Assembly: GCA_016214955.1 (NCBI GenBank)
Contig: JACRMN010000023.1
Span: 274,501-338,500, forward strand
Direction of reading: 5' to 3'
DNA length: 64,000 bases
Origin: Deltaproteobacteria bacterium
GTDB taxonomy: Bacteria > Myxococcota > Myxococcia > Myxococcales > Anaeromyxobacteraceae
The position numbers and the translations under genes were made by a program. Shown piece after piece: positions 7,197 to 25,820 of this stretch (its first letter is position 1; each line of letters starts with the position of its first letter). The notes beneath the pieces are model-generated. The model saw only the letters and a program-made list of their open reading frames with translations. It was not told the DNA's origin and did not search any database.

Positions 7197-7901
7197 CTAT
7201 CCCTCGCCCTTCTCGGTCCCGTCGTACTTGAAGGTGACGGTGGCCGGCTTGCCGGCCTCGACCGTGACCTCGGCGGTCTTGGCGCCGTAGCGCTCGTGCC
7301 AGGCCTCCACGGTGTACTTGCCCGGGGGGATGTCGGCGATCTGGAAGGTGCCGTCGGCGCCGGTGATGGCCTGGTGGGGGTTCTTGTTCACGCCCACGAA
7401 GGCGCGCATCCAGTCGTGCACGTCGCACTGCCAGCGGATCACGCCGGGCTTGGCGGCCACGTGGCTGATGGGCTTGGCCGAGGAGTTGGGCATGCCCTTG
7501 TTGAAGACCGTGGTCGCGCCCAGGTAGGTGTGCACGTTGTGGAGGATGGGATCGCCGTTCTTGGCCACCACCTTCTGGCCCACCAGCGCCATCTGCATGC
7601 GGGGCTTGTAGGCGCAGTCGATCTGGTCCACCACCACCTCGGGCGCGGTGTCCGGCGCCTTGCTGTCCGGGGCCCCCTTGACCACGTGGACCCAGACGTT
7701 GACGAGCTTCTTGTCCTTCACGATCACCGCCTCGTCGTTCATGGACTTCTTGGCGCAGAAGGCGTCGGCCTCGCGGTTGAGCTTCTGCATCACCGGCGGG
7801 GCACCGGTGAACTCTACGGCGCCGGAGAGGCTCTCGGCGCGCGACGGGGCGGGCAGGATGGCCGCGGCCAGCGCGGTGGCGATGAGGACACGGGTCGGCA
7901 T
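7197..7901 (-). CDS. periplasmic cupredoxin-like protein with carboxypeptidase-regulatory-like domain
   Basis: A 234-residue exported protein: signal peptide (LIATALAAAILPAPSRAES), then a domain with DPILHNVHTYLG and, about 40 residues on, RWQCDVHDWMRAFVGV. The spaced His, Cys, His and Met are arranged as in type 1 (blue) copper sites. Residues ~175-225 (AITGADGTFQIADIPPGKY) form a beta-sandwich repeat of the carboxypeptidase-regulatory type. A GAGGAG ribosome-binding site precedes the ATG. It follows the octaheme cytochrome in the bc operon and is a plausible mobile electron acceptor for it. Copper binding is inferred from the residue pattern. Related copper-like proteins of unknown role occur in other bacteria. 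Confidence 0.78.
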   Translation of the reverse strand: MPTRVLIATALAAAILPAPSRAESLSGAVEFTGAPPVMQKLNREADAFCAKKSMNDEAVIVKDKKLVNVWVHVVKGAPDSKAPDTAPEVVVDQIDCAYKPRMQMALVGQKVVAKNGDPILHNVHTYLGATTVFNKGMPNSSAKPISHVAAKPGVIRWQCDVHDWMRAFVGVNKNPHQAITGADGTFQIADIPPGKYTVEAWHERYGAKTAEVTVEAGKPATVTFKYDGTEKGEG

Positions 7902-7939
7902 GGTCTCTTCTCCTCGGGTGGGCTGCGTGGGCTGCGGGA

Positions 7940-10900: not shown

Positions 10901-11236
10901 CTCGTCCTGCCGGGCCTTCTCCTCGGCGGCGACGATGGCGTCGTAGGCGCGGCGCTGCTCCGGCGACCCGCTCATCGCCTGGCGAGCCGCCTGCAGCTCG
11001 GCCCGGGCCGCCTCCCGCTTCTGCTGCGCACCGGGCGCCTGCAGCCGCTTCTCGGCCCGCTGCCTGTCGGCGCGCAGGTGCCGCTCGGCGAGCTGGAAGA
11101 ACTCGCGCTGGTGCTGCTTCCAGGGACGGCGGGCCACCACCTCGTCCCAGACCGCCCAGGCGGTGGACAGCGCGATGAGCGCCGCCAGCACCACGAAGGC
11201 GCGCTTCTGGCTCGTCTGCTCCAGGGGCTTGGCCAC
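7940..11236 (-). CDS. membrane-anchored octaheme cytochrome c of a bc-type complex
   Basis: A 1098-residue protein unlike the cytochrome c1 or f normally paired with cytochrome b. One N-terminal helix (FVVLAALIALSTAWAVW) anchors it. Residues ~40-210 are charged, Ala/Glu/Arg/Gln-rich coiled coil. Eight CxxCH motifs follow: CQSCH (~240), CTVCH (~444), CEKCH (~496), CWGCH (~524), CRACH (~645), CSGCH (~756), CRNCH (~881) and CTKCH (~992). Several of the later ones have a downstream Met (for example RMPNFW, KMPDL, RMPQF, RMPTF, RMPSFW) as expected for Met-ligated class I cytochrome domains. The GTG start has GAGGA eight bases upstream and lies eight bases after the subunit IV gene. It should accept electrons from the Rieske protein and spread them over the periplasm. 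Confidence 0.88.
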   Translation of the reverse strand: MAKPLEQTSQKRAFVVLAALIALSTAWAVWDEVVARRPWKQHQREFFQLAERHLRADRQRAEKRLQAPGAQQKREAARAELQAARQAMSGSPEQRRAYDAIVAAEEKARQDEAEAKLYLGFDKSEADAIYYQLREARHEGSREELALKGRLEAQEKEIARRAKILADATRSRQAAAEARRTFQKRVDDAQARLDALEKPVQEIDKRLAVFSSFTGTLPAIEQVWIRGLPNSWGADSVDRCQSCHAAVDRAGFSAPWEVLEAREAGMGPSDFRIQYGVDEELAEAYQAVQERICEKIPLPSAIVPVGGNPVVAEAPPPDEAAATACRPVERYRRWLEMSRAYCGASQRWLARTGFVRKDRGGAPLPPPGAEGPRVQAMKGHGQDHEAAGDDGLARVASACASPELVEAFEAAEKADPYDVKPVFRTHPRRFELLTRAHPPEKFGCTVCHGGQGAQTKGVAGRPFAHGADDHHWNDPLTEEVRVLGQKFKGAFVEAKCEKCHREELTVNRAPLLTRGKKLFVEAGCWGCHPTDGYNDLPRRGPALTSLESKTSPGWLQTWIAYPRGWRPHTRMPNFWPGAVDPQSVPRLGGESDEQVKARHVGLREQEVAQITAYLWVSSQPASLPRPPARAGSPARGKEIFDTVGCRACHVAEQGSAARRSEASATRDYAPNLWNVGDKATPEWIYGWIKNPRAQWIETKMPDLRLSDEEAAHVTAWLSSLRSGRSYPTPPDYAPEQRPALEKQAAAGKVLIAKYGCSGCHAIRGFENAQKIATELGEHGRKDPRLLDFGDVRWFTEEPLHRQTYVNFVWTKLHTPRIYGYELVETRMPQFDLSDDEALALLTFLKGQTGERDRIPRELLPGIDGPKLAVLTGERLVFWNGCRNCHEVERRGGVVRDLFRASTQSYAPPILTGEGAKVQPGWLFSFLKEPSPLRPWLQIRMPTFHFSDDDAGTLVKYFASASGKSFPYLTVDVPRPTGQRAQETLTLFRDLQCTKCHVVGKLGPKQDPRSAAPDFLLARRRLRPDWIPLWLRNPNALMEGTRMPSFWDMEPSAEAPHKALGGDKQAQMEALRDLLMHLGEPGLSPAPAPRLSAVPPPRG

Positions 11237-11244
11237 GAGGATCC

Positions 11245-12042
11245 TCAGACGTTCAGGATGTTGGGGATGACCAGCACGTACTTGATGTTGAAGGCCAGGC
11301 GCAGGGCGATCTTCACCACCACGCCGGCCATCATCATGAAGAGCGAGGCGACGATGGCGTAGCGCACCGGCCCGAGCTGGCGCATGGGCTCGGCCCGGCG
11401 CTTCCAGCGCCACACCGCCGCCGGGACGCCCACCAGCCAGCCGCCGACGCAGAGCAGGCCGAAGGCCATCGCCCAGCCGGTGGAGCGGATGCCCAGGAAG
11501 TACGGCAGGTCGATGTTGGTGAGCGGGACGACCTTGTGCGGATCCCAGTAGTCCCAGGGCATGAAGAGGTTCCAGCCCGGGCCGCGCAGGAACACGCCGA
11601 TGACGATCATCCCCAGCCACAGGCCGATGAAGCCGACGAGGAAGGTGGAGATGGCGAACTTGCGCTCGCTCCAGGTGTAGTAGCCGTTCCCCCTGGGGTT
11701 GATGTCCACGTAGGGGATCACCATCAGGCCGACGATGATCAGGCCCGGCAGCACCACCCCGGCGATCCAGGGGTCGAAGTAGACCAGGATCTCCTGCAGG
11801 CCCAGGAAGTACCAGGGCGCCTTGGAGGGGTTGGGCGTCTTGGTGGGGTTGGCCGGCTCCTCCAGCGGCGCGTCGATGCCGATGGACCAGATCATCAGGA
11901 CCAGGACGAGGACGCAGCCGGCGATGAACTCGGCCCGGACGAAGTAGGGCCAGGAGTGGATCTTGTCGGAAAGCGTCGCGGGCGCGTCCGCCTTGCGCTC
12001 GGCGGCGGGGGCGGGGGCGGGGGCGGGCGTGGCTTCGGCCAT
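11245..12042 (-). CDS. petD: cytochrome b C-terminal subunit (subunit IV/PetD-like)
   Basis: A 265-residue inner-membrane protein corresponding to the C-terminal part of cytochrome b. After an Ala/Pro-rich head it has a helix (FIAGCVLVLVLMIWSIG), then NPSKAPWYFLGLQEILVY, which contains the quinol-site sequence variant PW(Y) found in place of PEWY in some split complexes. At least four further hydrophobic segments follow. Its separation from the b6-like gene (10 bases upstream) marks the split, b6f-type architecture. It works with the b6-like subunit, the Rieske protein and the octaheme cytochrome in quinol oxidation. The symbol is by similarity to PetD. Confidence 0.9.
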   Translation of the reverse strand: MAEATPAPAPAPAAERKADAPATLSDKIHSWPYFVRAEFIAGCVLVLVLMIWSIGIDAPLEEPANPTKTPNPSKAPWYFLGLQEILVYFDPWIAGVVLPGLIIVGLMVIPYVDINPRGNGYYTWSERKFAISTFLVGFIGLWLGMIVIGVFLRGPGWNLFMPWDYWDPHKVVPLTNIDLPYFLGIRSTGWAMAFGLLCVGGWLVGVPAAVWRWKRRAEPMRQLGPVRYAIVASLFMMMAGVVVKIALRLAFNIKYVLVIPNILNV

Positions 12043-12052
12043 GGCGTCCTCG

Positions 12053-12856
12053 CTACAGCGGCCCGGAGATGCCGCCGTCCTTCCGGACGCGCCAGAAGTG
12101 CAGCATCATCAGCACCGAGGCGAAGATGGGCAGGACGATGCAGTGCAGGACGTAGAAGCGCAGCAGCGTCGGCGCCCCCACCACCGTCCCGGCGGTCAGC
12201 AGCGCGCGCGCGTCGTAGCGCGGCGTCACGCCCAGCTCCGGCCCCAGCGGCCCCTCGTTGCCGAGCAGCGGGGTGGCACGCGCCATGTTGGTGCCGACGG
12301 TGACCGCCCAGATGGCCAGCTGGTCCCAGGGCAGCAGGTAGCCGGTGAAGGAGAGCAGCAGCGTCAGGGTCAGCAGGACCACGCCGACCACCCAGTTGAA
12401 CTCACGGGGCGGCTTGTAGCTCCCGGTCATGAAGACCCGGAACATGTGGACCCAGATGTAGATCACCATCCCATGCGCCGCCCAGCGGTGCATGTTCCGC
12501 ATGATCATTCCGAAGGGGACGTCGAAGTCGAGGTACTTCACGTCCCAGTAGGCGTACTCGGCGGTGGGCCGGTAGTAGAACATCAGCACCACGCCGGTGA
12601 CGACGGTGACCAGGTAGAGCAGGAAGGTGAGGCCGCCCGCACACCAGGTGAAGCGGAAGCGGACCGCGTGGCGCCGGATCTTGGAGGGGTGGAGGTGGAG
12701 CCAGACGTTGCCGGCCACCTGGAGCACGCGGTTGCGCGGGGTGTCGGCGTAGCCGTGCCGGAAGATGGAGCGCCAGACGTAGTTCCGCGCCAGGCGGTCG
12801 GCGAGGGTGGGCCTGGGCGCGGGGGCGGCTGCGGCGGCCTGGGTGTCGGGAGGCAT
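12053..12856 (-). CDS. petB: cytochrome b6-like subunit (PetB-like)
   Basis: A 267-residue membrane protein that carries the b hemes of the quinol-oxidising complex. Helix B has [20 protein letters not shown] and helix D has [19 protein letters not shown]: two pairs of His, each 13-14 residues apart, that ligate the two b hemes. [12 protein letters not shown] is the classical loop after helix B, and [13 protein letters not shown] follows. The ATG (12856) was chosen because it starts just after the Rieske stop, with 8 bases between, and the N-terminal [17 protein letters not shown] is amphipathic as usual. The length is somewhat above cyanobacterial PetB (about 215 residues) because of the N-terminal extension. 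Confidence 0.93.
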
Positions 12857-12864
12857 GGTGGCCC

Positions 12865-13422
12865 CTAGGCGCCGGTGTAGCGGAGGAACGACTGGGGGTC
12901 TTCCCACTGCCCCAGCTCGTGGCGGTAGCGCACCGCGGTGTCGACGAGGAGCTGGCCGTCGTCGGCCAGCGCGATCTTGACCCGCTCCAGCGGGCGCGGC
13001 GTCGGGCCCTCGAAGTTGACGCCGTCGATGGTGTAGCCCGAGCCGTGGCAGGGGCACTTGAACTTGCCCTCCGGCCCCAGCCAGCGCGGCGTGCATCCCA
13101 GGTGCGTGCAGATGCCCAGCAGCGCGTAGATCTCCCGGTCGTTGCGGACGATCCAGACCCGCTGCGACTTCATCCAGCGCTCCGAGACCTCGCCGACGAT
13201 GTACTCGTTGGGGTAGCCGGCCTTGAAGGTGGTGGGCGGCTCGAAGAGGACGCGCGGGAACAGCATCCGGGTGACGGCGGCGCCTGCACAGGCCAGGCAG
13301 CCGAGGATGGCGGTGGAGGCGGCCAGCGAGGCGACGTCGCGCCGGCACCAGATGTGTTCGGTGGCGCCCTCCACGGTGGGGGCAGCGCCGTGGGTCGCGG
13401 TCCCGCTCTTCGCGTCGGTCAC
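12865..13422 (-). CDS. petC: Rieske iron-sulfur protein of the bc complex
   Basis: A 185-residue protein with one N-terminal membrane segment ([21 protein letters not shown]) and a periplasmic Rieske fold. The [2Fe-2S] ligands are in CTHLGC and CPCHGSG, about 17 residues apart, and a Pro-loop (GPTPRPLER) follows. It takes the first electron from quinol at the b6-like subunit and hands it to the c-type subunit. The GTG start at 13422 has GGAGG eight bases upstream, which decides it over longer reading-frame extensions. It is the first gene of the minus-strand operon that runs to 6889. Confidence 0.94.
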
Positions 13423-14016: not shown

Positions 14017-14538
14017 TCACACCGAGCGCGTGGCCCAGGCCTGCGGCAGGTGGCGCCGGAGCAGCGCCGCCAGTTGCTCGCCGTCGAGCAGGTCCACCGG
14101 CTGCCCCCGGGCCGCCTCGTGCGCCTCGGCCGAGAAGCGGCCCAGCGTCACCAGCACCGCCTTGCCCACCGCCTCGGCCCGCGCGGCGTCGAGCAGCGTG
14201 CGCACCTCGTCGGCGTCCACCGATCCTCCCTCGGCAGCCAGCAGCCCGCGCACGTAGATGCGCCCGCCGCGGATGGGGGTCGGGTCGTTCGCCAGGAACT
14301 CCACCGCGCCGCCCCCCTGCTGCCCGGGCTCGGGAGCGAAGCCCATCTCGGCGAAGAGCGCGCGCAGCGCCCGCTGCAGCGCCTCGGTGCCCCCGGCCCG
14401 CAGCCAGCCCAGCTCGGAGGGCGCTGCCGCCTCGCCGCCGGCCGAGGCCGCGGGCGAGACCGGCTGCCCCCTGCCCACCAGCAGGATGATCAGGAAGCCG
14501 ACGACGGTGGCTGCGCCGGCGAGGAGGAGGAGGCCCAC
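14017..14538 (-). CDS. membrane-anchored Mrr/restriction-endonuclease-like domain protein
   Basis: About 173 residues: one N-terminal helix (LLLLAGAATVVGFLIILLVG), a linker, then a domain with GFAPEPGQQGGGAVEFLAN, GRIYVRGLL, a helix around DADEVRTLLDAARAEAVGKAVLVTLGRFS, and a final DLLDGEQLAALL. The last segment (VTLGRFS ... DLLDGEQL) is the tail motif of Mrr-type PD-(D/E)xK nucleases. The acidic and Lys catalytic residues are not obviously intact, so it may be a non-catalytic member. The start is uncertain: GTG 14538 just before the helix, or ATG 14643, which would run through the regulatory repeats; neither has a clear ribosome-binding site. It lies inside the interval between the two cytochrome modules. 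Confidence 0.6.
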   Translation of the reverse strand: MGLLLLAGAATVVGFLIILLVGRGQPVSPAASAGGEAAAPSELGWLRAGGTEALQRALRALFAEMGFAPEPGQQGGGAVEFLANDPTPIRGGRIYVRGLLAAEGGSVDADEVRTLLDAARAEAVGKAVLVTLGRFSAEAHEAARGQPVDLLDGEQLAALLRRHLPQAWATRSV

Positions 14539-14774: not shown

Positions 14775-14791
14775 TGGCACGGATCTGGGAA
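14775..14791 (+). promoter_or_regulatory. conserved element C, right copy
   Basis: TGGCACGGATCTGGGAA, identical to the left copy. It ends directly before the GGGGGAGG ribosome-binding site of the NHL gene. If read as a sigma-54 promoter it would start the transcript inside that ribosome-binding site, which argues against that reading. Confidence 0.55.
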
Positions 14792-14808
14792 TGGGGGAGG
14801 TGAACCCC

Positions 14809-15876
14809 TTGGCCCCCGCCCGCCCTCCCCTCCCGCTTCGCCCCGGCCTCGCCCTGGCACTGGCGCTGGGCGGCGCCGCCTGCGCCGGCACGGTGCGCCC
14901 GCCGCCGGTCTGGCCGGCTCCACCGGCCACCGAGCGCATCCGCCACGTGGGCACGCTCTCCGGGGGCGCCGACCTGGAGGGCAGCGCGGCCCGCTTCTGG
15001 CGGCGCCTGGCGGGCCTGGAGGCGCCGGCGCGGCTCTACCACCCGCTGGCGGTGGCGGTGTCGCCCGGGGGCGACCTGCTCGCGGTCTCCGACCAGGGGC
15101 TCAACCAGCTCCTGGTCTTCGACCTGGCCGCCTCCCGCCTGGCCACCATCGGCCGCGACGACCTCGGCGAGGCGCCGGGCGGCGTGGCCGTGGAAGGCGA
15201 GACGGTCTGGGTGGTGGTCCCGCTGCGCCGGGTGGCCCTGGCCTACGGGCGCGACGGCCGTCCGCTGCGCTCGCTCGACCTCTCCGACTGCGAGCGCCCG
15301 CTCGGGCTGGCCGTCGACGCCGCGCGGAAGCTGCTCTACGTGAGCGACGTCTCCTCGGCCCAGGGCGCCGGCCACGCGGTGCACGTCCACGCCCTCGTGG
15401 GCGGGGAGCACGTCCGCACCCTCGGCCGGAAGGGGCACGGCAAGGGCGAGCTCTTCTTCCCCACCTTCCTGGCCCTCTCGCCGGGCGGGAGCCTGTACGT
15501 CGCCGACACCATGAACGCCCGGGTGGTGGAGTACGACGCCGAGGGGAACGCGATCCGGCAGTTCGGCGAGCGCGGCGACCGCTTCGGCCAGTTCGACAAG
15601 CCCAAGGGCGTGGCCCTCGACTCCTTCGGCAACCTCTACGTCGTCGACTCCTTCTTCGCCGCGGTCCAGATCTTCCGCCGCGACGCCCGCCTGCTCCTGT
15701 TCTTCGGCGGCCCCGGCGACTCCCCCGGCTTCCTCGCCAACCCGGCCGGCATCGCCATCGACGCCCGCAACCGCATCTACGTAGCCAACGGCCTCAACTT
15801 CCGCGTCGACGTCTACCAGCTGGTCAACACCTCGGCCCAGGACACCGCCCTGGCCGAGCTCCCCGCGGCGCGCTGA
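14809..15876 (+). CDS. NHL-repeat beta-propeller protein, first gene of cytochrome operon
   Basis: A 355-residue exported protein. A hydrophobic signal (PGLALALALGGAAC) ends in a Cys that may be lipidated, although the lipobox is imperfect. The rest is a beta-propeller with NHL repeats, for example HPLAVAVSPGGDLLAVSD, RPLGLAVDAARKLLYVSD, FPTFLALSPGGSLYVADT, KPKGVALDSFGNLYVVDS and NPAGIAIDARNRIYVANG. TTG 14809 was preferred because GGGGGAGG lies eight bases upstream; ATG 14791 would have no ribosome-binding site and would overlap element C. Such propellers are recurrent neighbours of filament-type cytochromes. A scaffold or assembly role is inference. Confidence 0.85.
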   Translation: MAPARPPLPLRPGLALALALGGAACAGTVRPPPVWPAPPATERIRHVGTLSGGADLEGSAARFWRRLAGLEAPARLYHPLAVAVSPGGDLLAVSDQGLNQLLVFDLAASRLATIGRDDLGEAPGGVAVEGETVWVVVPLRRVALAYGRDGRPLRSLDLSDCERPLGLAVDAARKLLYVSDVSSAQGAGHAVHVHALVGGEHVRTLGRKGHGKGELFFPTFLALSPGGSLYVADTMNARVVEYDAEGNAIRQFGERGDRFGQFDKPKGVALDSFGNLYVVDSFFAAVQIFRRDARLLLFFGGPGDSPGFLANPAGIAIDARNRIYVANGLNFRVDVYQLVNTSAQDTALAELPAAR

Positions 15877-15905
15877 CCCCGACGCCGCGACCCCCGGAGC
15901 CCGCG

Positions 15906-16685
15906 ATGATCGAGCCCTCCCGCCGCGCCGCCTCCCTGCCGCTCCTCCTCCTCCTGCTCGGCCTCGCCGGGCCCGCCGCCGCCCAGACCGGCCCGGCCTC
16001 CATCGCCACCTCGAAGCACAACTTCCAGCTCCAGACCAACCCGGTCCACGTGGACGGCGCGGTGGCGGGATCCGAGGACGGCCTCTGCGTCTTCTGCCAC
16101 ACGCCGCACAAGGGCGCCTCGTCGCTCCTGCTCTGGAACCACCAGTTCTCGGCGGGCAGCTACTCCTGGAAGGACGTGACCGCCGGGCGCACCACGGGCG
16201 GCACCAGCTACCCCGCCAACCTGCGCACCTGGTCCGGCTCCACGGCCAAGTGCCTCTCCTGCCACGACGGCACCGTGAGCGTGGGCTCGCTCTACTGGAG
16301 CAACGCCACCGCCAACCCCGGCGTGGCGATGGCCGGCCCCGACCAGACCGCCGGCGCCATCAGCAACCCGGCCTACGTCATCCCCCAGTTCGCCGACCGC
16401 GGCGACCTCTCCGGCAACCACCCGGTGGGCGTGCCCTACAGCTACGGCCAGGTGGCCAGCACCTACAACGGCATCACCACCGGCCCCGACGTGCGGCTGG
16501 CCCAGTGGGTGCCGGCCCCCACCGGCGTGAAGATCTTCGGCGCCGGCGGCGGCGGAGCGCCGGTGGCCGGCGCGGCCGGGATCGAGTGCGCCTCCTGCCA
16601 CGATCCCCACGGCACCGGCAATGCCTTCTTCCTGCGGGTGACCAAGACCGGCAGCCAGCTCTGCCTCTCCTGCCACATCAAGTGA
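15906..16685 (+). CDS. OmcE-like tetraheme cytochrome c (possible filament subunit)
   Basis: A 259-residue exported protein with a signal peptide (LPLLLLLLGLAGPAAAQ) and four heme motifs in the order CVFCHTPHKG, CLSCHDGT, CASCHDPHG and a C-terminal CLSCHIK. The conserved opening SKHNFQ, the HTPH after heme 1, NHPVGVPY before heme 3 and a motif at the very C-terminus are the layout I know for OmcE, the tetraheme cytochrome that polymerises into extracellular filaments in Geobacter. Length and spacing agree. It lies between an NHL protein and an outer-membrane barrel. Filament formation is inference from the family. Confidence 0.85.
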   Translation: MIEPSRRAASLPLLLLLLGLAGPAAAQTGPASIATSKHNFQLQTNPVHVDGAVAGSEDGLCVFCHTPHKGASSLLLWNHQFSAGSYSWKDVTAGRTTGGTSYPANLRTWSGSTAKCLSCHDGTVSVGSLYWSNATANPGVAMAGPDQTAGAISNPAYVIPQFADRGDLSGNHPVGVPYSYGQVASTYNGITTGPDVRLAQWVPAPTGVKIFGAGGGGAPVAGAAGIECASCHDPHGTGNAFFLRVTKTGSQLCLSCHIK

Positions 16686-16695
16686 GCGGCGCAGG

Positions 16696-18438
16696 GTGAG
16701 GGAGGAGCCCCTGCGAGCCACCACCCGAGCCCTGGCGGGACTGGCGCTGGCCGCCGCCGGCTCGGCGCGCGGCGGCGTGACCGGCAACGTCGAGGTGCAG
16801 GCCCAGGCCACCCAGAACGTCTCCCAGGCGCCGGGCGGCCCCAGCCAGGTCACCGCCGGCGCGCTCCTGCTCGAGAGCCTGTCGCTCCACTACGCCGGCC
16901 TCCCCTTCGGCCCGGCGGTGGCGGTGGTCGCCGCCGGCGGCTCCTTCTCCCACGTCGACGGCTGGTACGGGCGCGGCCTGCAGGCCAGCGGGCAGGTGGT
17001 CTCCTTCGACGCCTCGCTCGGCTTCCTCCCGCGGCGCGCCGTCCCGCTGCGCCTGTACGCCGGGGGCTCCTACGCCAGCGGCACCGGGGGCCTGCTGGCC
17101 CGGAGCGGCGCCGGCCCCAGCCTGCTCTACGGTGGCTCGGTGAACCTGGAGCCGGGGCGCATCGCGCCCGGGCTGCGGCTCGACGCCTCGGAGAGCCGCA
17201 GCTCCCGGCCCGGCCTGGAGCGGCTCTCCGACGTGCAGCGGCGGCTGGTGGCCACCGCCTACGACACCTGGCGCGGCCAGAGCCTCCAGCTCACCGCCCG
17301 GGTGGACACCGACCACCGCCAGGGCGCGGGCGACATCCGCTCCCGCGGCCTGACGCTCCTGTGGAGCTCGCCCTTCCACCAGACCACGGTGCTGGCCTCC
17401 GAGGTGCGGCGCACGCTGGCGGTGCTGGGCGGCATCACCAGCGATCGCCAGGCCAGCGCCTCTTCGGAGCAGCGCTGGTCGCCCACGCTGGCCACCCAGC
17501 AGGCGCTGCGCCTCTCCGAGGCGGGGGCGGGCTCGTCCACCGGGCGGCTGGGCGAGGGCCGTGCCTCCTTCACCTGGCACCGCGGGCTCGGCGCCGGCGC
17601 GCTCACCTTCTCCGGCGGGGCCAGCGCCGGCTCCACCCGCTCCACCGGCCCGGGCGGCGACGGGCGCGGCGAGAGCTGGGCCGTCAACGGCCGCGCCGCC
17701 TACGGGCGGCCCCTCGGGCCGCTCACCGCCAGCGTCGCCGCGGGCGCCGCCACCTCGGCCTGCGCCTGCCGCTTCGGCACCGATGGCCAGAGCACGCTCC
17801 TCGACGCCACCGCCTCCCTCGGCCTCCAGGGCGGGGCCCGGGGCGCCGCCCAGGCCGACTACACCCTGGTCCGCGCCCTGGCGCCGCTGGCGCGGGGCGG
17901 CGACAGGCTGGAGAACCACGCCCGGCTCTTCGGCCGCCTGGCCCTGACCGAGCTGGCCCAGCTCACCAGCACCCTGGCGTGGGACGACGGCGTGCGTGAG
18001 CTGCTCGACATCACCCGCGGCCGGGCCACCAGCCTGCACGAGCGCGCCCTCTCCGGATCGCTGGGCGCCGCCACCCGCCTCGGCCACCTCTACCCCAGCG
18101 CCGAGGTGCGCCACGCGCGCAACGCCGTGGTCACCGACGGCTCGCTCTTCGTGGCCGGCAGGCCCACCCTGGTCCGCTCGGTCACCAGCGCCCTGGCCGG
18201 GCTCACCTGGAGCCCGCGGGAGACCCTGGGGCTGCAGGGCCAGGTGCAGGGCGCCTGGACCCAGCTGCAGGAGAGCCCCGACCTCACGTCGCTGGGCGCC
18301 AGCCTGGCCCTCACCTGGCGCCTGGGCCGCCTCACCGCCAGCCTGCAGTACCAGGCGGCCCGCAACCGGCAGGGCGACGACCCGGCCACCTTCCAGCAGT
18401 CGATCCGGGCGGTGCTGACGCGCCCTTTCGAGCTCTGA
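16696..18438 (+). CDS. large outer-membrane beta-barrel protein
   Basis: A 580-residue exported protein with a signal (ALAGLALAAAGSARGG) and then continuous alternating amphipathic strands rich in Gly, Ser, Thr and aromatic residues. It ends RAVLTRPFEL, with the Phe near the C-terminus that barrel proteins often have. No soluble domain or heme motif is seen; a CAC lies near residue 356. By size and position it could be the porin part of a porin-cytochrome conduit carrying electrons over the outer membrane, comparable in role but not evidently in sequence to MtrB or OmbB. The GTG start follows the tetraheme gene by 10 bases. Confidence 0.72.
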   Translation: MREEPLRATTRALAGLALAAAGSARGGVTGNVEVQAQATQNVSQAPGGPSQVTAGALLLESLSLHYAGLPFGPAVAVVAAGGSFSHVDGWYGRGLQASGQVVSFDASLGFLPRRAVPLRLYAGGSYASGTGGLLARSGAGPSLLYGGSVNLEPGRIAPGLRLDASESRSSRPGLERLSDVQRRLVATAYDTWRGQSLQLTARVDTDHRQGAGDIRSRGLTLLWSSPFHQTTVLASEVRRTLAVLGGITSDRQASASSEQRWSPTLATQQALRLSEAGAGSSTGRLGEGRASFTWHRGLGAGALTFSGGASAGSTRSTGPGGDGRGESWAVNGRAAYGRPLGPLTASVAAGAATSACACRFGTDGQSTLLDATASLGLQGGARGAAQADYTLVRALAPLARGGDRLENHARLFGRLALTELAQLTSTLAWDDGVRELLDITRGRATSLHERALSGSLGAATRLGHLYPSAEVRHARNAVVTDGSLFVAGRPTLVRSVTSALAGLTWSPRETLGLQGQVQGAWTQLQESPDLTSLGASLALTWRLGRLTASLQYQAARNRQGDDPATFQQSIRAVLTRPFEL

Positions 18439-18440
18439 CC

Positions 18441-19463
18441 ATGGCCCGCCTCCTGCTCCTCGCCGCCGCTGCCTGCGCCGCCGCCTGCGCCCACGGCGAG
18501 GTGCGCCGCGTCGGGGCCCGCCTCCCCGGCGACCCGGCCTGGCCGCGCGGCGAGCGGCGGGAGATCGCCTGGGTGGGCGAGATCCGCGGGCCGGAGAGCC
18601 TGGGCATCGAGCGCGGCTTCTGGCGAAGGGTGTGGGATCTCGTCACCGGCAGCGACGACCTCTCCGGCCTCTACCGCCCCTTCGGCGTGGCGGTGGACGG
18701 CGCGGGCCGCGTGGCGGTCGCCGACCCGGGCCGGCGGCTGGTGCACCTGTTCGACCCGGCCTCGGCGAGCGCGCGCCGGATCGGCGGCGGCGACGAGCCC
18801 CTCGTCTACCCGGTGGCCGTGGCCTTCCTGGGCAGGCTCCTGCTGGTGGCCGACGCCGAGGCCGGCGCGCTGCGGGCCTTCGACCTCGAGGGCCGGCCGG
18901 CCCCCCTGCCGGTCGCCGCACCGCGCCTGGTGCGCCCTTCGGGCCTGGCCGTGGACGAGCAGCGCAGGCGGCTCTACGTCTCCGACGCCGCCGAGCACCT
19001 GGTCCACGTCCTGCCCCTCGACCCCGGCGGCGCGGCTTCCCGCCTCGGCGGGCGGGGCCGCGAGGCCGGCCGCTTCAACTTCCCCACCCACCTGGCCCTC
19101 GACGCCGGAGGCGGCCTGGCGGTCTGCGACGCCCTCAACTTCCGCATCCAGCTCTTCGACGCCGAGCTTCGGCCCCGCTCCGCCTTCGGCCAGGTCGGAG
19201 ACGGGCTCGGCGATCTGGCACGGCCCAAGGGCATCGCCTTCGACCGCGACGGGGTGGTCTTCGTCGTCGAGGGCTACTTCGACGTGGTGCAGGCCTTCGA
19301 GCCCGGAGGTCGGCTCCTGGGGGTCTTCGGCGGGACCGGCGTCACCCCGGGCCGCTTCTGGCTGGCCGGCGGCATGGCCACCGACGCCCGCGGGCGGCTC
19401 TACGTGGCCGACACCTACAACGCGCGGGTGCAGGTCTTCGACCTGGAAGCGAGGACGCCGTGA
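18441..19463 (+). CDS. second NHL-repeat lipoprotein
   Basis: A 340-residue relative of the first propeller of this operon. The signal LLLLAAAACAAACAHG has a lipobox-like AAAC. Repeats include RPFGVAVDGAGRVAVADP, YPVAVAFLGRLLLVADA, RPSGLAVDEQRRRLYVSD, FPTHLALDAGGGLAVCDA, RPKGIAFDRDGVVFVVEG and GGMATDARGRLYVADT. Both NHL genes share the sequence FWRR before the first blade and the FPT(H/F)LAL repeat, so they look like a duplication. It starts two bases after the barrel stop and overlaps the next cytochrome by four bases, so translation is probably coupled. Confidence 0.84.
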   Translation: MARLLLLAAAACAAACAHGEVRRVGARLPGDPAWPRGERREIAWVGEIRGPESLGIERGFWRRVWDLVTGSDDLSGLYRPFGVAVDGAGRVAVADPGRRLVHLFDPASASARRIGGGDEPLVYPVAVAFLGRLLLVADAEAGALRAFDLEGRPAPLPVAAPRLVRPSGLAVDEQRRRLYVSDAAEHLVHVLPLDPGGAASRLGGRGREAGRFNFPTHLALDAGGGLAVCDALNFRIQLFDAELRPRSAFGQVGDGLGDLARPKGIAFDRDGVVFVVEGYFDVVQAFEPGGRLLGVFGGTGVTPGRFWLAGGMATDARGRLYVADTYNARVQVFDLEARTP

Positions 19464-21415
19464 TCGCCCTCACCCTGGCGCTGCTGCTGGCGCAGCAGTC
19501 GGACGTCCGCTCCACCCGCCACAACCTCTCGGCCAGCGGCGGCCAGGCCGTCCGCGCCGCCACCCTCGACGAGGTCTGCGTCTTCTGCCACACGCCCCAC
19601 GGCGCCTACCAGTCGCGTCCCGTCTGGAACCGCAACCTCTCCTACCAGGACAGCCCCACCCTCTACTCCCTGTACGGCTCCACCACTCTCGACGCCACGG
19701 TGGCCCGGCCGACGGGCGCCTCCAAGCTCTGCCTCTCCTGCCACGACGGCACGCTGGCCCTGGGCTCGCTCATGAACCTGGACGCGCAGCGCCCCGCCGC
19801 GGTGACCATGGAGGGCGGCGTCACCACCATGCCGGCGGGCCGGACGCTGCTCTCCACCGACCTGCGCAACGACCACCCCATCTCGATGGTGCCCAACCCC
19901 GCCGCCGATCCGGAGATCCGGCTGCCGCCGCCCGGCGACGCCATCCGGCTGCGCGAGGGATCGACGGCGGGGGTGAAGGACTCGGTGCAGTGCACCTCCT
20001 GCCACGACCCGCACCTGGCCACCTTCAAGTTCCTGGTGAAGGACAACCTCCGCGGCGCGGTGTGCCTCACCTGCCACGACAAGCCCGGCTGGCTGGGCAG
20101 CCGCCACGAGGCCTCCCTGGCGCCATACCCGGCCGGCGGCGCCACCACCGTCGGCGACCTGGGCTGCCTGGCCTGCCACGCACCCCACAACGGGCAGTCC
20201 CCCTCGCGGCTGCTGCAGACCAGCAACCGCTCCCAGGGCGCGCCCTTCCCCTGGGCCGAGGAGAACGTCTGCTTCTCCTGCCACCAGCCCGGCGGCACCG
20301 GCACCGACCCCCTGCGCGGCCGCCCGGCGCCCGACATCCGCAGCCAGTTCCAGAAGCCCGTGCACCACCCGGTGGAGCTCACCACCGACGTGCACCAGCC
20401 GGTCTTCACCAACCACCTGCCCGAGCCCGAGCCGGTGCTCAACGACCGCAAGCACGTCGAGTGCGCCGACTGTCACAACCCGCACCGGGTCCAGGCGCTG
20501 CCCGGCAACGTCTACGAGGGACAGAAGGGCATCTCGCTCTCCGGCGGCACGGTGGTGGACGACGCCGCCACCGATCTCCACCAGTACGAGCTCTGCCTCC
20601 GCTGCCACGGCGACACCTTCGCCACCATGATCCCGCCGGCGCCGACGCGCCCCCCCGGCGGCGGCAACAAGCGCGTCGAGTTCCAGCCCACCAACGACTC
20701 CTACCACCCGGTCCCCGGCCCGGGCCGGAACCAGTCCACCTTCCTCAACAACGTCCTCGACACGCCCGACGGGCAGCTCCGCGGCAACGACTGGCAGGGC
20801 AACCGGCTCAACCGCTCCTCCACCGTGCTCTGCACCGACTGTCACAACAACGACCAGACCGCCGACACCCCGGGCAGCGCCCGCAACTCTCCCTCCGGGC
20901 CCAAGGGGCCGCACGGCTCGCTCAACACCCGCATGCTGCGCGCCAGCTACTCCACCCAGGTGGGCAGCGCGGGCGGTCCGCCCTTCGGCGCCTTCAACGC
21001 CGGCAACTTCGCGCTCTGCTTCCTGTGCCACGACCAGGGGCGCCTGCTGGGGCAGACGGTGAGCCGCAGCAACTTCTTCCAGGCGGGCGGCGTGGGAGCG
21101 GGGCGCGGCAACCTCCACAACATGCACCTGGTGGAGCGGACCAACGCCGCCTGCCACGAGTGCCACTACAACGTTCACTCCAACGTCCAGGCCGCCAACA
21201 CCGACTACCGCAACGCCCTGGGCACCGACACCCACCTCGTCAACTTCGCTCCCAACGTCCGCCCCTTCCCCGGCCCCGACCCGTACTACGGCGACCGGCC
21301 CACGCTGCCGCGCTACGGCCGCACGCCCACCAACCGGCCCTACTGCTTCCTCTCCTGCCACGGCCGCGACGCCATGGACGGCGACAAGACCGTCTACCTG
21401 CCCCCCAACCCGTGA
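19460..21415 (+). CDS. dodecaheme cytochrome c, OmcE-like head plus eight-heme extension
   Basis: A 651-residue exported cytochrome that starts at GTG within the stop of the NHL gene (GTGA overlap, GAGG upstream). Residues ~15-215 repeat the OmcE pattern: STRHNLS, CVFCHTPHG, CLSCHDGT, NDHPISM, CTSCHDPH, CLTCHDK. The rest adds CLACHAPH, CFSCH, CADCHNPH, CLRCH, CTDCH, CFLCH, CHECH and a final CFLSCHG, which is a CX3CH site. That gives 11 CxxCH and one CX3CH. Paired CxxCH-PH motifs mark the doubled-CXXCH family. It may be an extracellular or barrel-associated carrier. Confidence 0.88.
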   Translation: MIALTLALLLAQQSDVRSTRHNLSASGGQAVRAATLDEVCVFCHTPHGAYQSRPVWNRNLSYQDSPTLYSLYGSTTLDATVARPTGASKLCLSCHDGTLALGSLMNLDAQRPAAVTMEGGVTTMPAGRTLLSTDLRNDHPISMVPNPAADPEIRLPPPGDAIRLREGSTAGVKDSVQCTSCHDPHLATFKFLVKDNLRGAVCLTCHDKPGWLGSRHEASLAPYPAGGATTVGDLGCLACHAPHNGQSPSRLLQTSNRSQGAPFPWAEENVCFSCHQPGGTGTDPLRGRPAPDIRSQFQKPVHHPVELTTDVHQPVFTNHLPEPEPVLNDRKHVECADCHNPHRVQALPGNVYEGQKGISLSGGTVVDDAATDLHQYELCLRCHGDTFATMIPPAPTRPPGGGNKRVEFQPTNDSYHPVPGPGRNQSTFLNNVLDTPDGQLRGNDWQGNRLNRSSTVLCTDCHNNDQTADTPGSARNSPSGPKGPHGSLNTRMLRASYSTQVGSAGGPPFGAFNAGNFALCFLCHDQGRLLGQTVSRSNFFQAGGVGAGRGNLHNMHLVERTNAACHECHYNVHSNVQAANTDYRNALGTDTHLVNFAPNVRPFPGPDPYYGDRPTLPRYGRTPTNRPYCFLSCHGRDAMDGDKTVYLPPNP

Positions 21416-22143
21416 ACGCCGCCGCCGCCAGCGCCCTCGCCCTGCTGCTCGCCGCCGAGCTGGCCCCGGCGCGCCTCTCGCGCCTCGACGGCTCGCGCCA
21501 CAACTTCTTCGGCGCTGGCCACCCCGCCCCCTCCGCCGACCTCGACCTGTGCCAGTTCTGCCACGTCCCCAACCGGCTGCCCTCGGCCCAGGCCCCGGCG
21601 CCGCTCTGGGCCCCGGGCGCGCCACCCCAGGCCGCGGCCCTCGACGTCCGCGCCGATCCCGGCGGGCAGCCCCAGCCGCTGCGCTTCGCCGGCTCGACGC
21701 TGCGCTGCCTCTCCTGCCACGACTCCACCGTGTCCCGCATCAACATCCCCTTCCGCCCCTCCTCCACCTCGCTGCGCGGGGACGAGGTGGCCGCCGACCG
21801 CCACCGCCGCGAGGCGCCCGGCGACGCCTACCTCGCCATCCCCGAGGGCTGGACCGGCCGGGTGATGGGGAACCACCCGGTGGGGGTGCCCTACCCGCTG
21901 GGTTCGGCCGGCTACCGGCTCTACGACCCGCGGGCGGCGCCCCTGCCGGCACGGGAATGGGAGCCCGACCCCCGCGCCAAGGGGCTGAAGCTCTTCGCCG
22001 ACCAGAGCGGCTTCGACATCCCGCCGGGCGGCGCCGGCGTCGAGTGCGCCTCCTGCCACGACCCCCACGGAACGCCCAACCTCCCCTTCTTGCGCCTGCC
22101 CAAGGCCCGGAGCGAGCTGTGCCTCGGTTGCCACCGGAAGTGA
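21412..22143 (+). CDS. second OmcE-like tetraheme cytochrome c
   Basis: A 243-residue exported cytochrome. The GTG start lies inside the stop of the dodecaheme gene. After a signal (ALALLLAAELAPARLS) come GSRHNFFG, CQFCHVPN, CLSCHDST, NHPVGVPYPL, CASCHDPHGT and a C-terminal CLGCHRK. It is a divergent paralogue of the gene at 15906: HTPH after heme 1 is here HVPN, so a distal His ligand is lost or moved. Whether it forms a filament or a mixed filament with its paralogue cannot be told. Confidence 0.85.
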   Translation: MNAAAASALALLLAAELAPARLSRLDGSRHNFFGAGHPAPSADLDLCQFCHVPNRLPSAQAPAPLWAPGAPPQAAALDVRADPGGQPQPLRFAGSTLRCLSCHDSTVSRINIPFRPSSTSLRGDEVAADRHRREAPGDAYLAIPEGWTGRVMGNHPVGVPYPLGSAGYRLYDPRAAPLPAREWEPDPRAKGLKLFADQSGFDIPPGGAGVECASCHDPHGTPNLPFLRLPKARSELCLGCHRK

Positions 22144-23276
22144 AAGCCGCCGTCGCCTCGCTGCTCCTGGCCGCGCTGCCCGCCGCCGCCCGCGCCGCGG
22201 CGCCGCCCCCCGCCGGCCCGGGGGAGGACTGCCTCTCCTGTCACGGGGCCCTGGTCGCCGGGAAGAAGGTGGTCCACCCGCCGGTGAAGAACGGCCTGTG
22301 CCTGGGCTGCCACCTGCCGCTGGCGGCCGCCGAGCACCGCTTCGGCTGGCGCGAGGAGGGCAAGGCCATGTGCCGGCAGTGCCACGGGCCGCGCGACACC
22401 CAGAAGGTGCGCCACGACCCGGTGGAGCAGGGGCTCTGCCTCTACTGCCACGACCCCCACGCCTCCGACAACCACGTGCGGCTGCGGCTGCCCATCTTCC
22501 AGACCTGCACCCAGTGTCACCCCTCCAAGCGCGTCCAGGACGCCACCAGCGCCACGCGCCACGGGGCCCTGGATCCGGCGCAGAACCCGCTGGTGTGCGT
22601 GGCCTGCCACGATCCCCACCAGTCGGACCACGAGAAGCGGCTCAAGGCCTGGCCGCCCATGAACGTGTGCCTCACCTGCCACGACAAGGTGCAGCGGGCA
22701 CCCGACGGCCCGCTCCTGAACATGAAGGCCTGGCTCGACCAGCACCCGGACAACGAGCTTCGCCACGGGCCGGTGCGCGAGGGCATGTGCAACCACTGCC
22801 ACGAGCCCCACGGCACCGACGAGTTCCGCATGCTGCGCGGCTCCTTCCCGCCCGAGTTCTACTGGCCCTACAGGCCGGGAGACACCTACGGCCTCTGCTT
22901 CCGCTGCCACGACAGGCGGCTCCTCGAGACCCAGCTCGTCCAGGCCCCGCCGGCGGCGGCCCGCCAGGACCGGATCGACTGGGCCAGGCTGGCCGAGGGC
23001 GACAGGCTGGTGCGCGCCGGGACCACCGGGTTCCGCAACGGCGAGGAGAACCTGCACTTCAAGCACACCAACAAGCCCGACAAGGGCCGCACCTGCCGCG
23101 ACTGCCACGACTTCCACGCCAGCCCCAACCCCAAGCACATCCGCACCTCCACCGGCTTCGGCAACTGGGAGTTCAAGCTCAACTACGCGAAGAGCGAGAC
23201 CGGCGGCCGCTGCTGGCCCGGCTGTCACGTGGAGCGGCGCTACGACAGGCTCCAGAAGCTGGAGAACCCGCGGTGA
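22140..23276 (+). CDS. undecaheme doubled-CXXCH cytochrome c
   Basis: A 378-residue periplasmic or secreted cytochrome, started by a GTG that overlaps the previous stop. A signal (VASLLLAALPAAARAAA) is followed by CLSCH, CLGCH, CRQCH, CLYCH, CTQCH, CVACH, CLTCH, CNHCH, CFRCH and CRDCH, and then CWPGCH, a CX3CH site. Repeated CHDPHxSD(N/H) units match the doubled-CXXCH family. The C-terminal part NLHFKHTNKPDKGRTCRDCHDFH resembles the tail of other deltaproteobacterial cytochromes of this class. It probably relays electrons between the inner-membrane complex and the outer-membrane parts. Confidence 0.88.
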   Translation: MKAAVASLLLAALPAAARAAAPPPAGPGEDCLSCHGALVAGKKVVHPPVKNGLCLGCHLPLAAAEHRFGWREEGKAMCRQCHGPRDTQKVRHDPVEQGLCLYCHDPHASDNHVRLRLPIFQTCTQCHPSKRVQDATSATRHGALDPAQNPLVCVACHDPHQSDHEKRLKAWPPMNVCLTCHDKVQRAPDGPLLNMKAWLDQHPDNELRHGPVREGMCNHCHEPHGTDEFRMLRGSFPPEFYWPYRPGDTYGLCFRCHDRRLLETQLVQAPPAAARQDRIDWARLAEGDRLVRAGTTGFRNGEENLHFKHTNKPDKGRTCRDCHDFHASPNPKHIRTSTGFGNWEFKLNYAKSETGGRCWPGCHVERRYDRLQKLENPR

Positions 23277-24199
23277 TCGCCCCCGCCCTGGCCGCCGCCC
23301 TGCTGGCCGCGCCGGTGGTCCTGGCCCCCGGGCCGCGGGCCCAGTCGGTGCGCGCCGAGGTCTGGGTGGTGGCCGAGGGAGAGGGGCCGGTGTCGGCCTG
23401 GGCCGGCGGCGAGGCGCCCCGGGCCTGCCGCAGCGGGGGAGCGATGGAGCGGGTGGCCCACTGCCGGGTGGCGCTGCAGCCGGGGGAGAACCGGGTGGTG
23501 GTGCGCGACGCCGGCGGCGAGGCCTCCCTGGCGGTGCTGCGCTACGTCACCACCGGCCGCCTGGTGGGCGCCGACACCGCCGGCTTCGGCGAGGGGACGG
23601 TGCACAGGCCCGAGGTCGAGGCCCGCTGCGCGCGCTGCCACGACCTCGGCGCGGCCGCCGGGCACCCGCGCCAGGTGCCCCTGCCGGCGTCGGCCTGCGC
23701 CCCCTGCCACGCCGAGCTCTCCGCCCGCCGCTACCCCCACGGCCCGGTGGGCCAGGGCGCCTGCCTGATGTGCCACGACCCCGGCTCCTCGCCGCAGCGC
23801 TACGCGGTGGCCTGGCCCATCCAGGAGACCTGCTTCCGCTGCCACTTCGACATCCGCGGGCAGATGGAGCGCAAGGCCTGGCGCCACGGTCCGGCCGCCG
23901 CCGGCCGCTGCACCACCTGCCACGATCCCCACGGCTCGGAGAACCCCTTCTGGCTCAAGAAGCCCATCTTCGACCTCTGCACCAACTGCCACACCGAGAA
24001 GGCCAGCGGCCGCCACGTGGTGCTGGGCTTCGTGTACGGCGACGGCCACCCGCTGAAGGGCCGCCCCCATCCCCTGAAGCCGGGCGTGGAGCTGGCCTGC
24101 TCCAGCTGCCACAACCCGCACGCCGCCCAGGTCCGTTTCCTGTGGCAGTTCGACGCCACGGTGAGAGAGGAGCTCTGCCGCACATGTCACCCCAAGTGA
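23273..24199 (+). CDS. octaheme doubled-CXXCH cytochrome c with N-terminal beta domain
   Basis: A 308-residue exported protein, GTG start overlapping the previous stop. Residues ~25-110 form a heme-free, beta-rich region (QSVRAEVWVV, ENRVVVRDAGGEASLAVL) of unknown fold. Eight CxxCH motifs follow: CARCH, CAPCH, CLMCH, CFRCH, CTTCH, CTNCH, CSSCH and CRTCH, with CHDPHGSENPFWL and CHNPHAAQ as doubled-CXXCH units. The protein ends directly after heme 8 (CHPK). The N-terminal part may be a docking domain. Confidence 0.86.
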   Translation: MIAPALAAALLAAPVVLAPGPRAQSVRAEVWVVAEGEGPVSAWAGGEAPRACRSGGAMERVAHCRVALQPGENRVVVRDAGGEASLAVLRYVTTGRLVGADTAGFGEGTVHRPEVEARCARCHDLGAAAGHPRQVPLPASACAPCHAELSARRYPHGPVGQGACLMCHDPGSSPQRYAVAWPIQETCFRCHFDIRGQMERKAWRHGPAAAGRCTTCHDPHGSENPFWLKKPIFDLCTNCHTEKASGRHVVLGFVYGDGHPLKGRPHPLKPGVELACSSCHNPHAAQVRFLWQFDATVREELCRTCHPK

Positions 24200-25044
24200 T
24201 CCTCCTGGTGCGGCGCGCCGGCGCGCTGGCCGCCGCCCTGCTCACCCTCGCCCCGGCGGCTGCCGCCGGCCAGGCTCGCCCCCGCCCGGCCTCGGCGGCA
24301 CCGGCGGCGCGCACCTTCACCCCCTGGGACCAGCCGCCACCGCCTCCGCCCCCGCCGGGCGACGACCTGCTGGCGCTGGGAGAGCGGGTGTTCCGCGGGG
24401 CCTGCGTCGGCTGTCACGGCGAGAAGGGGCTGGGCGACGGGAGGGAGGGCAAGCTCATCTCCATCCCGCCGCGCGACTTCGTGGCCGCCCAGTTCCTGTG
24501 CCGCCACACCCCGTCCGGCTCGCTGCCCCGCGACGAGGATCTCTTCCGCTCCATCCGGCGCGGCTTCAGGCCAGACGTGGGCATGCCCTCCTTCCTCTTC
24601 CTCAGCGACAGGGAGGTGTGGGGGGTCATCTCCTTCCTCAAGACCCTCTCCCCTCGCTGGAAGGAGGACGAGGTCCCGCCGCCGCTGGTGGTGCCGCCGG
24701 CGCCCCCCTTCGGCAAGGACGGGGTGGCCCGCGGGGCGCAGGCCTACGTGGCCGCGGGCTGTGCCGCCTGCCACGGCAAGGAGGGGCACGGCGACGGCCC
24801 CTCGGCGCCCAAGCTCAAGTACGACAGCGGCCGGCCGGTGCGGCCCGCCGACTTCCGCCGGCCGCGCGACTTCAAGTGCGGCCAGCGCCCGGCCGACCTC
24901 TTCCGCACGCTGGTGAACGGGATGGACGGCAGCCCCATGCCCTCCTTCGCCGACGAGACCACCGTGGAGCAGCGCTGGGACCTGGTGCAGTTCATCCTCT
25001 CGGTGGGGGCCGCGCCCGGCGCCGCGCCCGCGCCGGGCCGCTAG
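24196..25044 (+). CDS. diheme cytochrome c with two class I domains
   Basis: A 282-residue exported protein with two tandem cytochrome c domains. The first has CVGCHGEKG and, later, GMPSF; the second has CAACHGKEG and, later, PMPSF, so each has a plausible Met ligand. A Pro run (WDQPPPPPPPPGDD) separates the signal region from domain 1. GTG 24196 was preferred to ATG 24184 because it repeats the GTGA stop-start overlap of the preceding genes. It is a likely small periplasmic shuttle, perhaps linking the bc complex to the large cytochromes. Confidence 0.85.
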   Translation: MILLVRRAGALAAALLTLAPAAAAGQARPRPASAAPAARTFTPWDQPPPPPPPPGDDLLALGERVFRGACVGCHGEKGLGDGREGKLISIPPRDFVAAQFLCRHTPSGSLPRDEDLFRSIRRGFRPDVGMPSFLFLSDREVWGVISFLKTLSPRWKEDEVPPPLVVPPAPPFGKDGVARGAQAYVAAGCAACHGKEGHGDGPSAPKLKYDSGRPVRPADFRRPRDFKCGQRPADLFRTLVNGMDGSPMPSFADETTVEQRWDLVQFILSVGAAPGAAPAPGR

Positions 25045-25054
25045 CGGAGCCGCC

Positions 25055-25579
25055 ATGGCCTACTTCATCGTCGAGACCTGCGTCGGCTGCACCGCCTGCG
25101 TCAACCGCTGCCCCACCGACGCCATCGCCGGGAGCCGCAAGGCCCTGCACGTCATCGACCCGGAGCTGTGCATCGACTGCGGCGCCTGCGGTGTGGTCTG
25201 CCCGGCGGAGGCCATCTATGACGACCGGCGGCAGCTCACGCTGCTCCTCAAGAAGCAGCAGCGACCGCTGGCCTACGTGGACGCGCTGGCCTGCACCGGC
25301 TGCGACAAGTGCGCCGAGCACTGCCCCTTCGACTGCCTGCACCTCGACGAGCGCGGCGACGCCGACTCGCCCCACTTCGGGCTCATGCGGGTCGAGGAGC
25401 CCAAGTGCACGGGGTGCCGCGAGTGCGAGGAGGCCTGCCCGTACGACGCCATCTTCGTCCACCGGCGCGACCAGGTGCCGGCCTGGCTCCAGGCCAACCT
25501 GGCGCCGCCCTTCGCCAGGGCCGGCGCCGCCGCGCCCCCGGCGGCGACGCCGCCTGCCGCGCCTCCCGCCGTCCCCTGA
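25055..25579 (+). CDS. four-cluster polyferredoxin
   Basis: A 174-residue protein with four Cys clusters: CVGCTACVNRCP, CIDCGACGVVCP, CTGCDKCAEHCP and CTGCRECEEACP, enough for four [4Fe-4S] centres. There is no signal peptide or Tat motif, so it should be cytoplasmic, which is unexpected in an operon of exported cytochromes. The C-terminal tail is low-complexity Ala/Pro. GGAG precedes the ATG. It may feed electrons from cytoplasmic donors to an unseen membrane partner, or serve an unrelated cytoplasmic step. Confidence 0.9.
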   Translation: MAYFIVETCVGCTACVNRCPTDAIAGSRKALHVIDPELCIDCGACGVVCPAEAIYDDRRQLTLLLKKQQRPLAYVDALACTGCDKCAEHCPFDCLHLDERGDADSPHFGLMRVEEPKCTGCRECEEACPYDAIFVHRRDQVPAWLQANLAPPFARAGAAAPPAATPPAAPPAVP

Positions 25580-25592
25580 GCCCGGAGGTCCC

Positions 25593-25820
25593 ATGGCCAC
25601 CCGCCAGACCGTCGCCACCGCCCTCGCCTACGCCCAGGCCCTGGTCCCGCACCTCGAGCACCAGGGCTACCGGTGCGACGATCCGTGGGCGCGCCGCATG
25701 GGCAAGGGTTGCAGCACCTGCGGCGTGGAGGTGGAGATCGCCATCGCTGACTTCCGGCGGACCGGCGACCTCGAGGTCTTCGAGAAGGAGATGAAGCCCC
25801 ACCTGAAGAAGAGGGCCTAG
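25593..25820 (+). CDS. 75-residue hypothetical protein with GCSTCG motif
   Basis: The last gene of the cytochrome operon, with GGAGG seven bases before the ATG. The protein is small, soluble and mixed-charge, with HLEHQGYRCDDPWARRMGKGCSTCG and a Lys-rich end (EMKPHLKKRA). Three Cys lie within 20 residues. I do not recognise the family. The stop overlaps the convergent MBL-like gene by four bases. Confidence 0.6.
   Translation: MATRQTVATALAYAQALVPHLEHQGYRCDDPWARRMGKGCSTCGVEVEIAIADFRRTGDLEVFEKEMKPHLKKRA

Follow-up and report, generated by a model that had tools for sequence, protein, structure and literature searches.

Electron passage between extracellular cytochrome filaments and the cell interior has been described as not well understood (PMC10553843). 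For the OetABI system with OmcX/OmcS-like cytochromes, it has been put forward that one cassette combines a porin-cytochrome conduit with filament cytochromes (PMC10553843). The Uet system of Tenderiales and Gallionella comprises the undecaheme UetJ, the tetraheme UetA, the barrel UetC, two NHL proteins (UetHI), the PPIase UetB and the trihemes UetDEG, and its large subunit carries 11 or 12 heme motifs (PMC10734462). Here, we analyzed a 64,000-nucleotide stretch of myxobacterial DNA (the window), in which nine linked genes most likely build a route for electrons across the outer membrane to surface proteins of the nanowire type. A sequence-only reading of the window had regarded the gene set, counted there as eleven, as one not known to be described. 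That view has to be narrowed, since Uet likewise combines an undecaheme and a tetraheme cytochrome with a barrel and two NHL proteins (PMC10734462), and the locus represents a new form of a system that is widespread and has been described only in part.

Gene content and conservation of the locus

The locus comprises 11 genes (A-K), all on the plus strand between positions 14791 and 25820 of the window, six of which encode cytochromes. Direct translation revealed 41 heme sites (39 CXXCH and two CX3CH), in agreement with the earlier count, with four in B, 12 in E (11 CXXCH and one CX3CH), four in F, 11 in G (ten CXXCH and one CX3CH), eight in H and two in I. Shuffled proteins gave an expectation of 0.2 CXXCH in total, which excludes chance as the source of these sites. 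The A/B, B/C and C/D gaps measure 29, 10 and 2 bp and are followed by five consecutive 4-bp overlaps (D/E through H/I) and then by gaps of 10 and 13 bp. Judged from these coordinates, the spacing of A-K is operon-like, in keeping with the eleven-gene operon of the sequence-only reading, but only nine of the genes are conserved and J and K are not conserved with them. The first gene had been taken to run from 14809; its start is the ATG at 14791 or lies just downstream, and 14809 does not stand out clearly as the start.

The nine-gene unit (A-I) encodes, in this order, NHL, tetraheme, barrel, NHL, 12-heme, tetraheme, 11-heme, 8-heme and 2-heme proteins. These genes occur together in the loci L058, L059/L154 (a single locus), L150, L153 and L155, and in one further genome they are divided between two contigs (L151 and L152). 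L150 keeps the gene order of the window, and the two contigs of L151/L152 agree with it as far as they reach; tetraheme B is placed at the end in L058, L059, L153 and L155. Identities of the nine-gene set across the other Myxococcota loci range from 32 to 78%. Relatives of F with at least 57% identity were found in seven of the 195 genomes of the phylum (the window's included), representing three families, with none in the other listed genomes of the window's own family. Thus, the nine-gene set is patchy, as a result of transfer or loss.

Downstream of the conserved set, gene J (25055-25579) encodes a polyferredoxin with several 4Fe-4S motifs (Fer4, 1.1e-26) and no signal peptide visible by eye, and gene K (25593-25820) a 75-residue protein with no Pfam or NCBIfam match. 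Both are missing from every other locus with the nine-gene set and were therefore dropped as parts of the system. The full path from periplasm to cell exterior suggested from the sequence alone is still plausible, but the ferredoxin and the 75-residue protein, which had been counted in, do not belong to the set.

Two NHL proteins and an outer-membrane barrel had also been predicted for the locus, and these assignments hold. A (14791-15876) and D (18441-19463, directly upstream of E) are NHL beta-propeller proteins with PF01436 matches of 8e-18 (64 bits) and 4.2e-24 (84 bits), respectively, against a gathering score of 20. Protein A is probably exported, carries a lipobox-like GGAAC detected by scanning, and shares 58-68% identity with its orthologues. 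For C (16696-18438), a search of Pfam and NCBIfam gave no sequence-family match, and its AF2 model, based on ten sequences, shows a signal helix followed by 28 strands (pLDDT 80.1), which predicts an outer-membrane beta-barrel of MtrB-like size. In VIA-align, MtrB (6r2q_B) ranked third with a Z score of 16.6 that is tied with other large and small barrels, and it gave the longest alignment (468 residues) and the lowest rmsd (5.9) among the matches listed. Orthologues of C share 32-48% identity. C used as a query against 14 relatives found no match, and the profile comparison of C with the barrels of relatives was co-linear and weak (E 8e-4, probability 24%).

G (22140-23276) and H (23273-24199) are paired-CXXCH cytochromes with 11 and eight hemes, respectively, that resemble the MtrA chain 6r2q_A (phmmer 5.1e-9 for G and 2.9e-16 for H). 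Their matches to the DmsE family (TIGR03508) are significant (2.1e-19, 70 bits for G; 5.5e-25, 88 bits for H) and lie under the cut-off of 192; G is probably periplasmic. I (24196-25044) is a diheme class I cytochrome c (PF00034, 3.1e-22) and a possible soluble electron carrier or partner. Its closest PDB match, 6h5l_B (phmmer 2.7e-39), is unexpectedly strong for a conduit neighbour.

The surroundings of the locus contain further redox genes. A divergent cluster on the minus strand (7197-13422) encodes a Rieske protein, a split cytochrome b and a multiheme protein of 1098 residues that has 8 CXXCH motifs and two cytochrome c domains. This bc-type complex with a giant multiheme subunit could feed the conduit. 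Between the two cytochrome clusters lies a minus-strand gene (14017-14538) for an Mrr-type nuclease-domain protein, which is probably membrane-anchored. Outside the window, the same genome encodes a second large paired-CXXCH cytochrome group with about twenty motif matches (G000:C24:14106-20041).

OmcE-like tetrahemes and the fused 12-heme protein

By sequence comparison, the tetrahemes B (15906-16685) and F (21412-22143) and the N-terminal ~208 residues of the 12-heme cytochrome E (19460-21415) are homologous over their full length to OmcE (7TFS), the filament cytochrome of Geobacter, with identities of about 28-32%. The phmmer values were 2.6e-18 for B (covering residues 24-259), 8.1e-15 for F and 8.9e-27 for the head of E (about residues 16-208), which was also matched to OmcE by Foldseek (2.1e-6). 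The AF2 model of E is poor in the head (pLDDT mostly 35-50), so its OmcE match comes mainly from the sequence. Another PDB chain, 9yuq, matches B (phmmer 5.7e-13), F and the E head alike, and OmcE and 9yuq were the only close solved relatives found for B.

OmcE-type tetrahemes present four candidate distal His contexts (N-terminal HN/HD, CHTPH, (N/D)HP and CHxxH), and the full set of four His occurs in 70 of 77 tetrahemes and in 81 of 85 fused heads. In B, a candidate filament subunit, they correspond to H38, H68, H172 and H235, as in OmcE, and are invariant in seven orthologues (68-74% identity). The CXXCH steps of B are 55/112/25 compared with 52/98/25 in OmcE, and both proteins have the HN motif at the N-terminus and end shortly after heme 4. 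The OmcE layout had been ascribed to both tetrahemes and the 12-heme head; homology of all three was found, but F reads CHVPN and not CHTPH. This second distal His of F is absent in all seven orthologues, which have CHVPN, CHVAN or CHVPS instead, and its only invariant His besides the heme motifs are H30, H155 and H219. M152 of F is likewise invariant in the seven orthologues and represents a possible replacement ligand. Thus, one heme of F is likely to be His/Met-coordinated, five-coordinate or supplied with a ligand by another protein, and F is unlikely to be the main filament subunit.

The structure 9yuq contains exactly four non-motif His, and both OmcE and 9yuq encode at least four such residues for four hemes, so that a complete own ligand set does not separate a monomer from a polymer. 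The discriminating point for polymerisation is whether one His acts in trans. In E, the 12 heme sites and 15 further non-motif His are conserved (36 homologues), including H216, located ten residues past the last heme of the head. With 15 such His for 12 hemes, the N-terminal His21 could serve in trans and H216 could close the head in cis. Within the 8-heme tail of E, residues 451-579 match domains II/IV of MtrC/MtrF in Pfam (46 bits, cut-off 30). Structural comparisons gave weak matches for the tail (OmcS, Z 4.3; an S-layer undecaheme cytochrome, Z 3.7, spanning residues 188-608 of E) and were not used to assign its kinship.

A genome scan for the E family revealed at least 567 relatives, and the best 80 of these span about 14 phyla as named in their record titles. 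In their core, one protein combines an OmcE-like head with an 8-heme tail, an NHL gene precedes the gene for this fusion, and a free OmcE-like tetraheme is usually encoded close by. The loci used for neighbour counts were picked by their match to E alone, which means that the neighbours were not selected for. In 43 loci, the sequence extends at least 6 kb to either side of E; an NHL gene was present within 6 kb in 42 of them (two such genes in 41), and 34 of the 43 have a separate OmcE-like tetraheme near E. Directly upstream, within 250 bp of E, an NHL gene was found in 60 of 71 loci. A tree built from 159 domains separates fused heads from free tetrahemes with one change, compared with 53 when the labels were shuffled, and the split has an SH-aLRT value of 82. 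The fused heads are one clade. A single origin of the fusion is not contradicted by this tree, which is unrooted and has many unsettled branches.

Related clusters of the window's own family carry a PPIase and a protein of ~800 residues, with TMTC-like TPR proteins in some, beside an OmcE-like gene. The ~800-residue exported protein (L051-L056) has no clear Pfam family, and its gene adjoins the barrel gene. Extensive glycosylation has been reported for OmcE (PMC9473688), and the TMTC-like TPR proteins encoded beside the OmcE-like gene in L051 and L052 are therefore of interest as candidates for glycosylating the filament cytochrome.

Proposed electron path and alternatives

We consider it reasonably probable that the nine-gene operon encodes an MtrAB-like conduit in the outer membrane that supplies extracellular cytochromes of the OmcE type, with E as the conduit-filament adapter. 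Periplasmic MtrA-like G and H, with the diheme I as a soluble carrier, would deliver electrons to or through the barrel C. The 8-heme tail of E would sit outside on the conduit, its OmcE-like head would present the same docking surface as a filament subunit, and B would stack onto this head as a filament or surface cytochrome. F would be a specialised subunit made beside E in which one heme is without its usual His ligand, and the NHL propellers A and D are probably lipoproteins that scaffold the assembly. Three features lead us to propose E as the adapter, namely its combination of a filament-type head with another multiheme domain, its conservation across phyla and the NHL genes that almost always lie beside it; E may be the part by which OmcE-type nanowires attach to the cell. 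More tentatively, E could be a general anchor of OmcE-type nanowires, its head serving as the initial filament subunit with a covalent link to the outer-membrane conduit, and the fusion could have arisen once and spread over about 14 phyla together with the NHL proteins and a free tetraheme. This broader proposal is possible, if doubtful.

The tetrahemes might instead be monomeric surface or periplasmic cytochromes that have the OmcE fold without polymerising, with E as a terminal surface reductase. OmcE and 9yuq were the only close solved relatives found and homology alone does not demonstrate polymerisation, the loss of one ligand in F and all its orthologues would suit a monomer, and the role of Geobacter filaments in physiology is itself disputed (PMC11077965). 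However, B retains all heme ligands of OmcE, its N-terminal HN motif and its chain end close behind heme 4, and a separate tetraheme usually accompanies the fused head. We regard the monomeric arrangement as rather unlikely. An unlikely placement of E is at the filament tip, where it would touch minerals, with G or H in the barrel C forming the conduit at which the B filament begins. The match of the E tail to MtrC/MtrF domains II/IV would be consistent with such a position, as MtrC faces outward, and so would the weak structural match to the S-layer undecaheme cytochrome. Nevertheless, the E gene shares 4 bp with the NHL gene before it, comes after the barrel gene and, along with NHL neighbours, has been conserved across phyla, features that would better fit a one-copy part at the base.

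We infer an outward direction of electron flow, but the same conduit might work inward and draw on Fe(II) or some other solid electron donor, the role suggested for Uet in Tenderiales and Gallionella. The same gene outline is found in Uet of cathode- or iron-oxidising bacteria (PMC10734462) and in locus L111 (gene order NHL-T4h-c3h-c3h-NHL-E11h); in addition, the genome has three haem-copper oxidase matches, and the Rieske/cytochrome b cluster adjoins the locus. On the other side, no RuBisCO was found in the 96%-complete genome, which leaves an electroautotrophic role unsupported, and the homologous core is present in Geobacteraceae and Desulfobacterota genomes as well. The oxidases, the Rieske/cytochrome b cluster and the negative RuBisCO search are compatible with a role in respiration and leave the direction undecided, which is not fixed by the sequence itself; inward flow appears distinctly unlikely to us. 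For the passage of electrons between filaments and cell, E provides a specific, testable part, a conserved fusion of filament-type and multiheme domains whose gene lies almost always beside NHL genes and usually beside a free tetraheme gene. The Myxococcota version has two paralogous tetrahemes, one of them lacking one heme ligand, and may allow major and special subunits to be separated.

Comparison with described systems

Uet, although uncharacterised, is the closest published system and, when set against the window by gene type and not by sequence, shares with it an undecaheme-class cytochrome, a tetraheme, a barrel and two NHL proteins. No PPIase or triheme gene was found among the 11 genes, and the locus has instead a second tetraheme and the 11-heme, 8-heme and diheme genes. 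With counterparts of the first four kinds of Uet genes and without the PPIase and trihemes, the locus is classified, by gene type alone, as Uet-like and is not filed as Uet.

With MtrCAB (6R2Q), the locus shares MtrA-like paired-CXXCH cytochromes and, possibly, a large barrel of MtrB-like predicted fold, for which MtrB ties in Z with other barrels. In contrast to MtrCAB, C has no MtrB family match, there are two MtrA-like proteins, and OmcE-type cytochromes are present with no MtrC gene recognised. As G and H also fall far under the curated MtrA/DmsE cut-off, the locus is not MtrCAB. OetABI, likened here by description, follows the same cassette idea, with OmcS-type hexahemes where the window has OmcE-type tetrahemes.

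OmcE of Geobacter sulfurreducens resembles B, F and the E head over their full length, with four similarly spaced CXXCH motifs and the same distal His in B and in the E head. In contrast to OmcE, F is without one distal His and the E head continues into an 8-heme tail. The Geobacteraceae/Desulfobacterota cluster (L085, L100 and L112) has the gene order 14-heme, tetraheme, NHL, 5-heme, ~700-aa gene (no Pfam family), NHL and 12-heme, and the product of the 5-heme gene in L085 carries a lipoprotein-like signal. This cluster keeps the same core order around the fused 12-heme protein as the window, whereas it has one tetraheme, and 5-heme and 14-heme genes replace the 11-, 8- and 2-heme genes.
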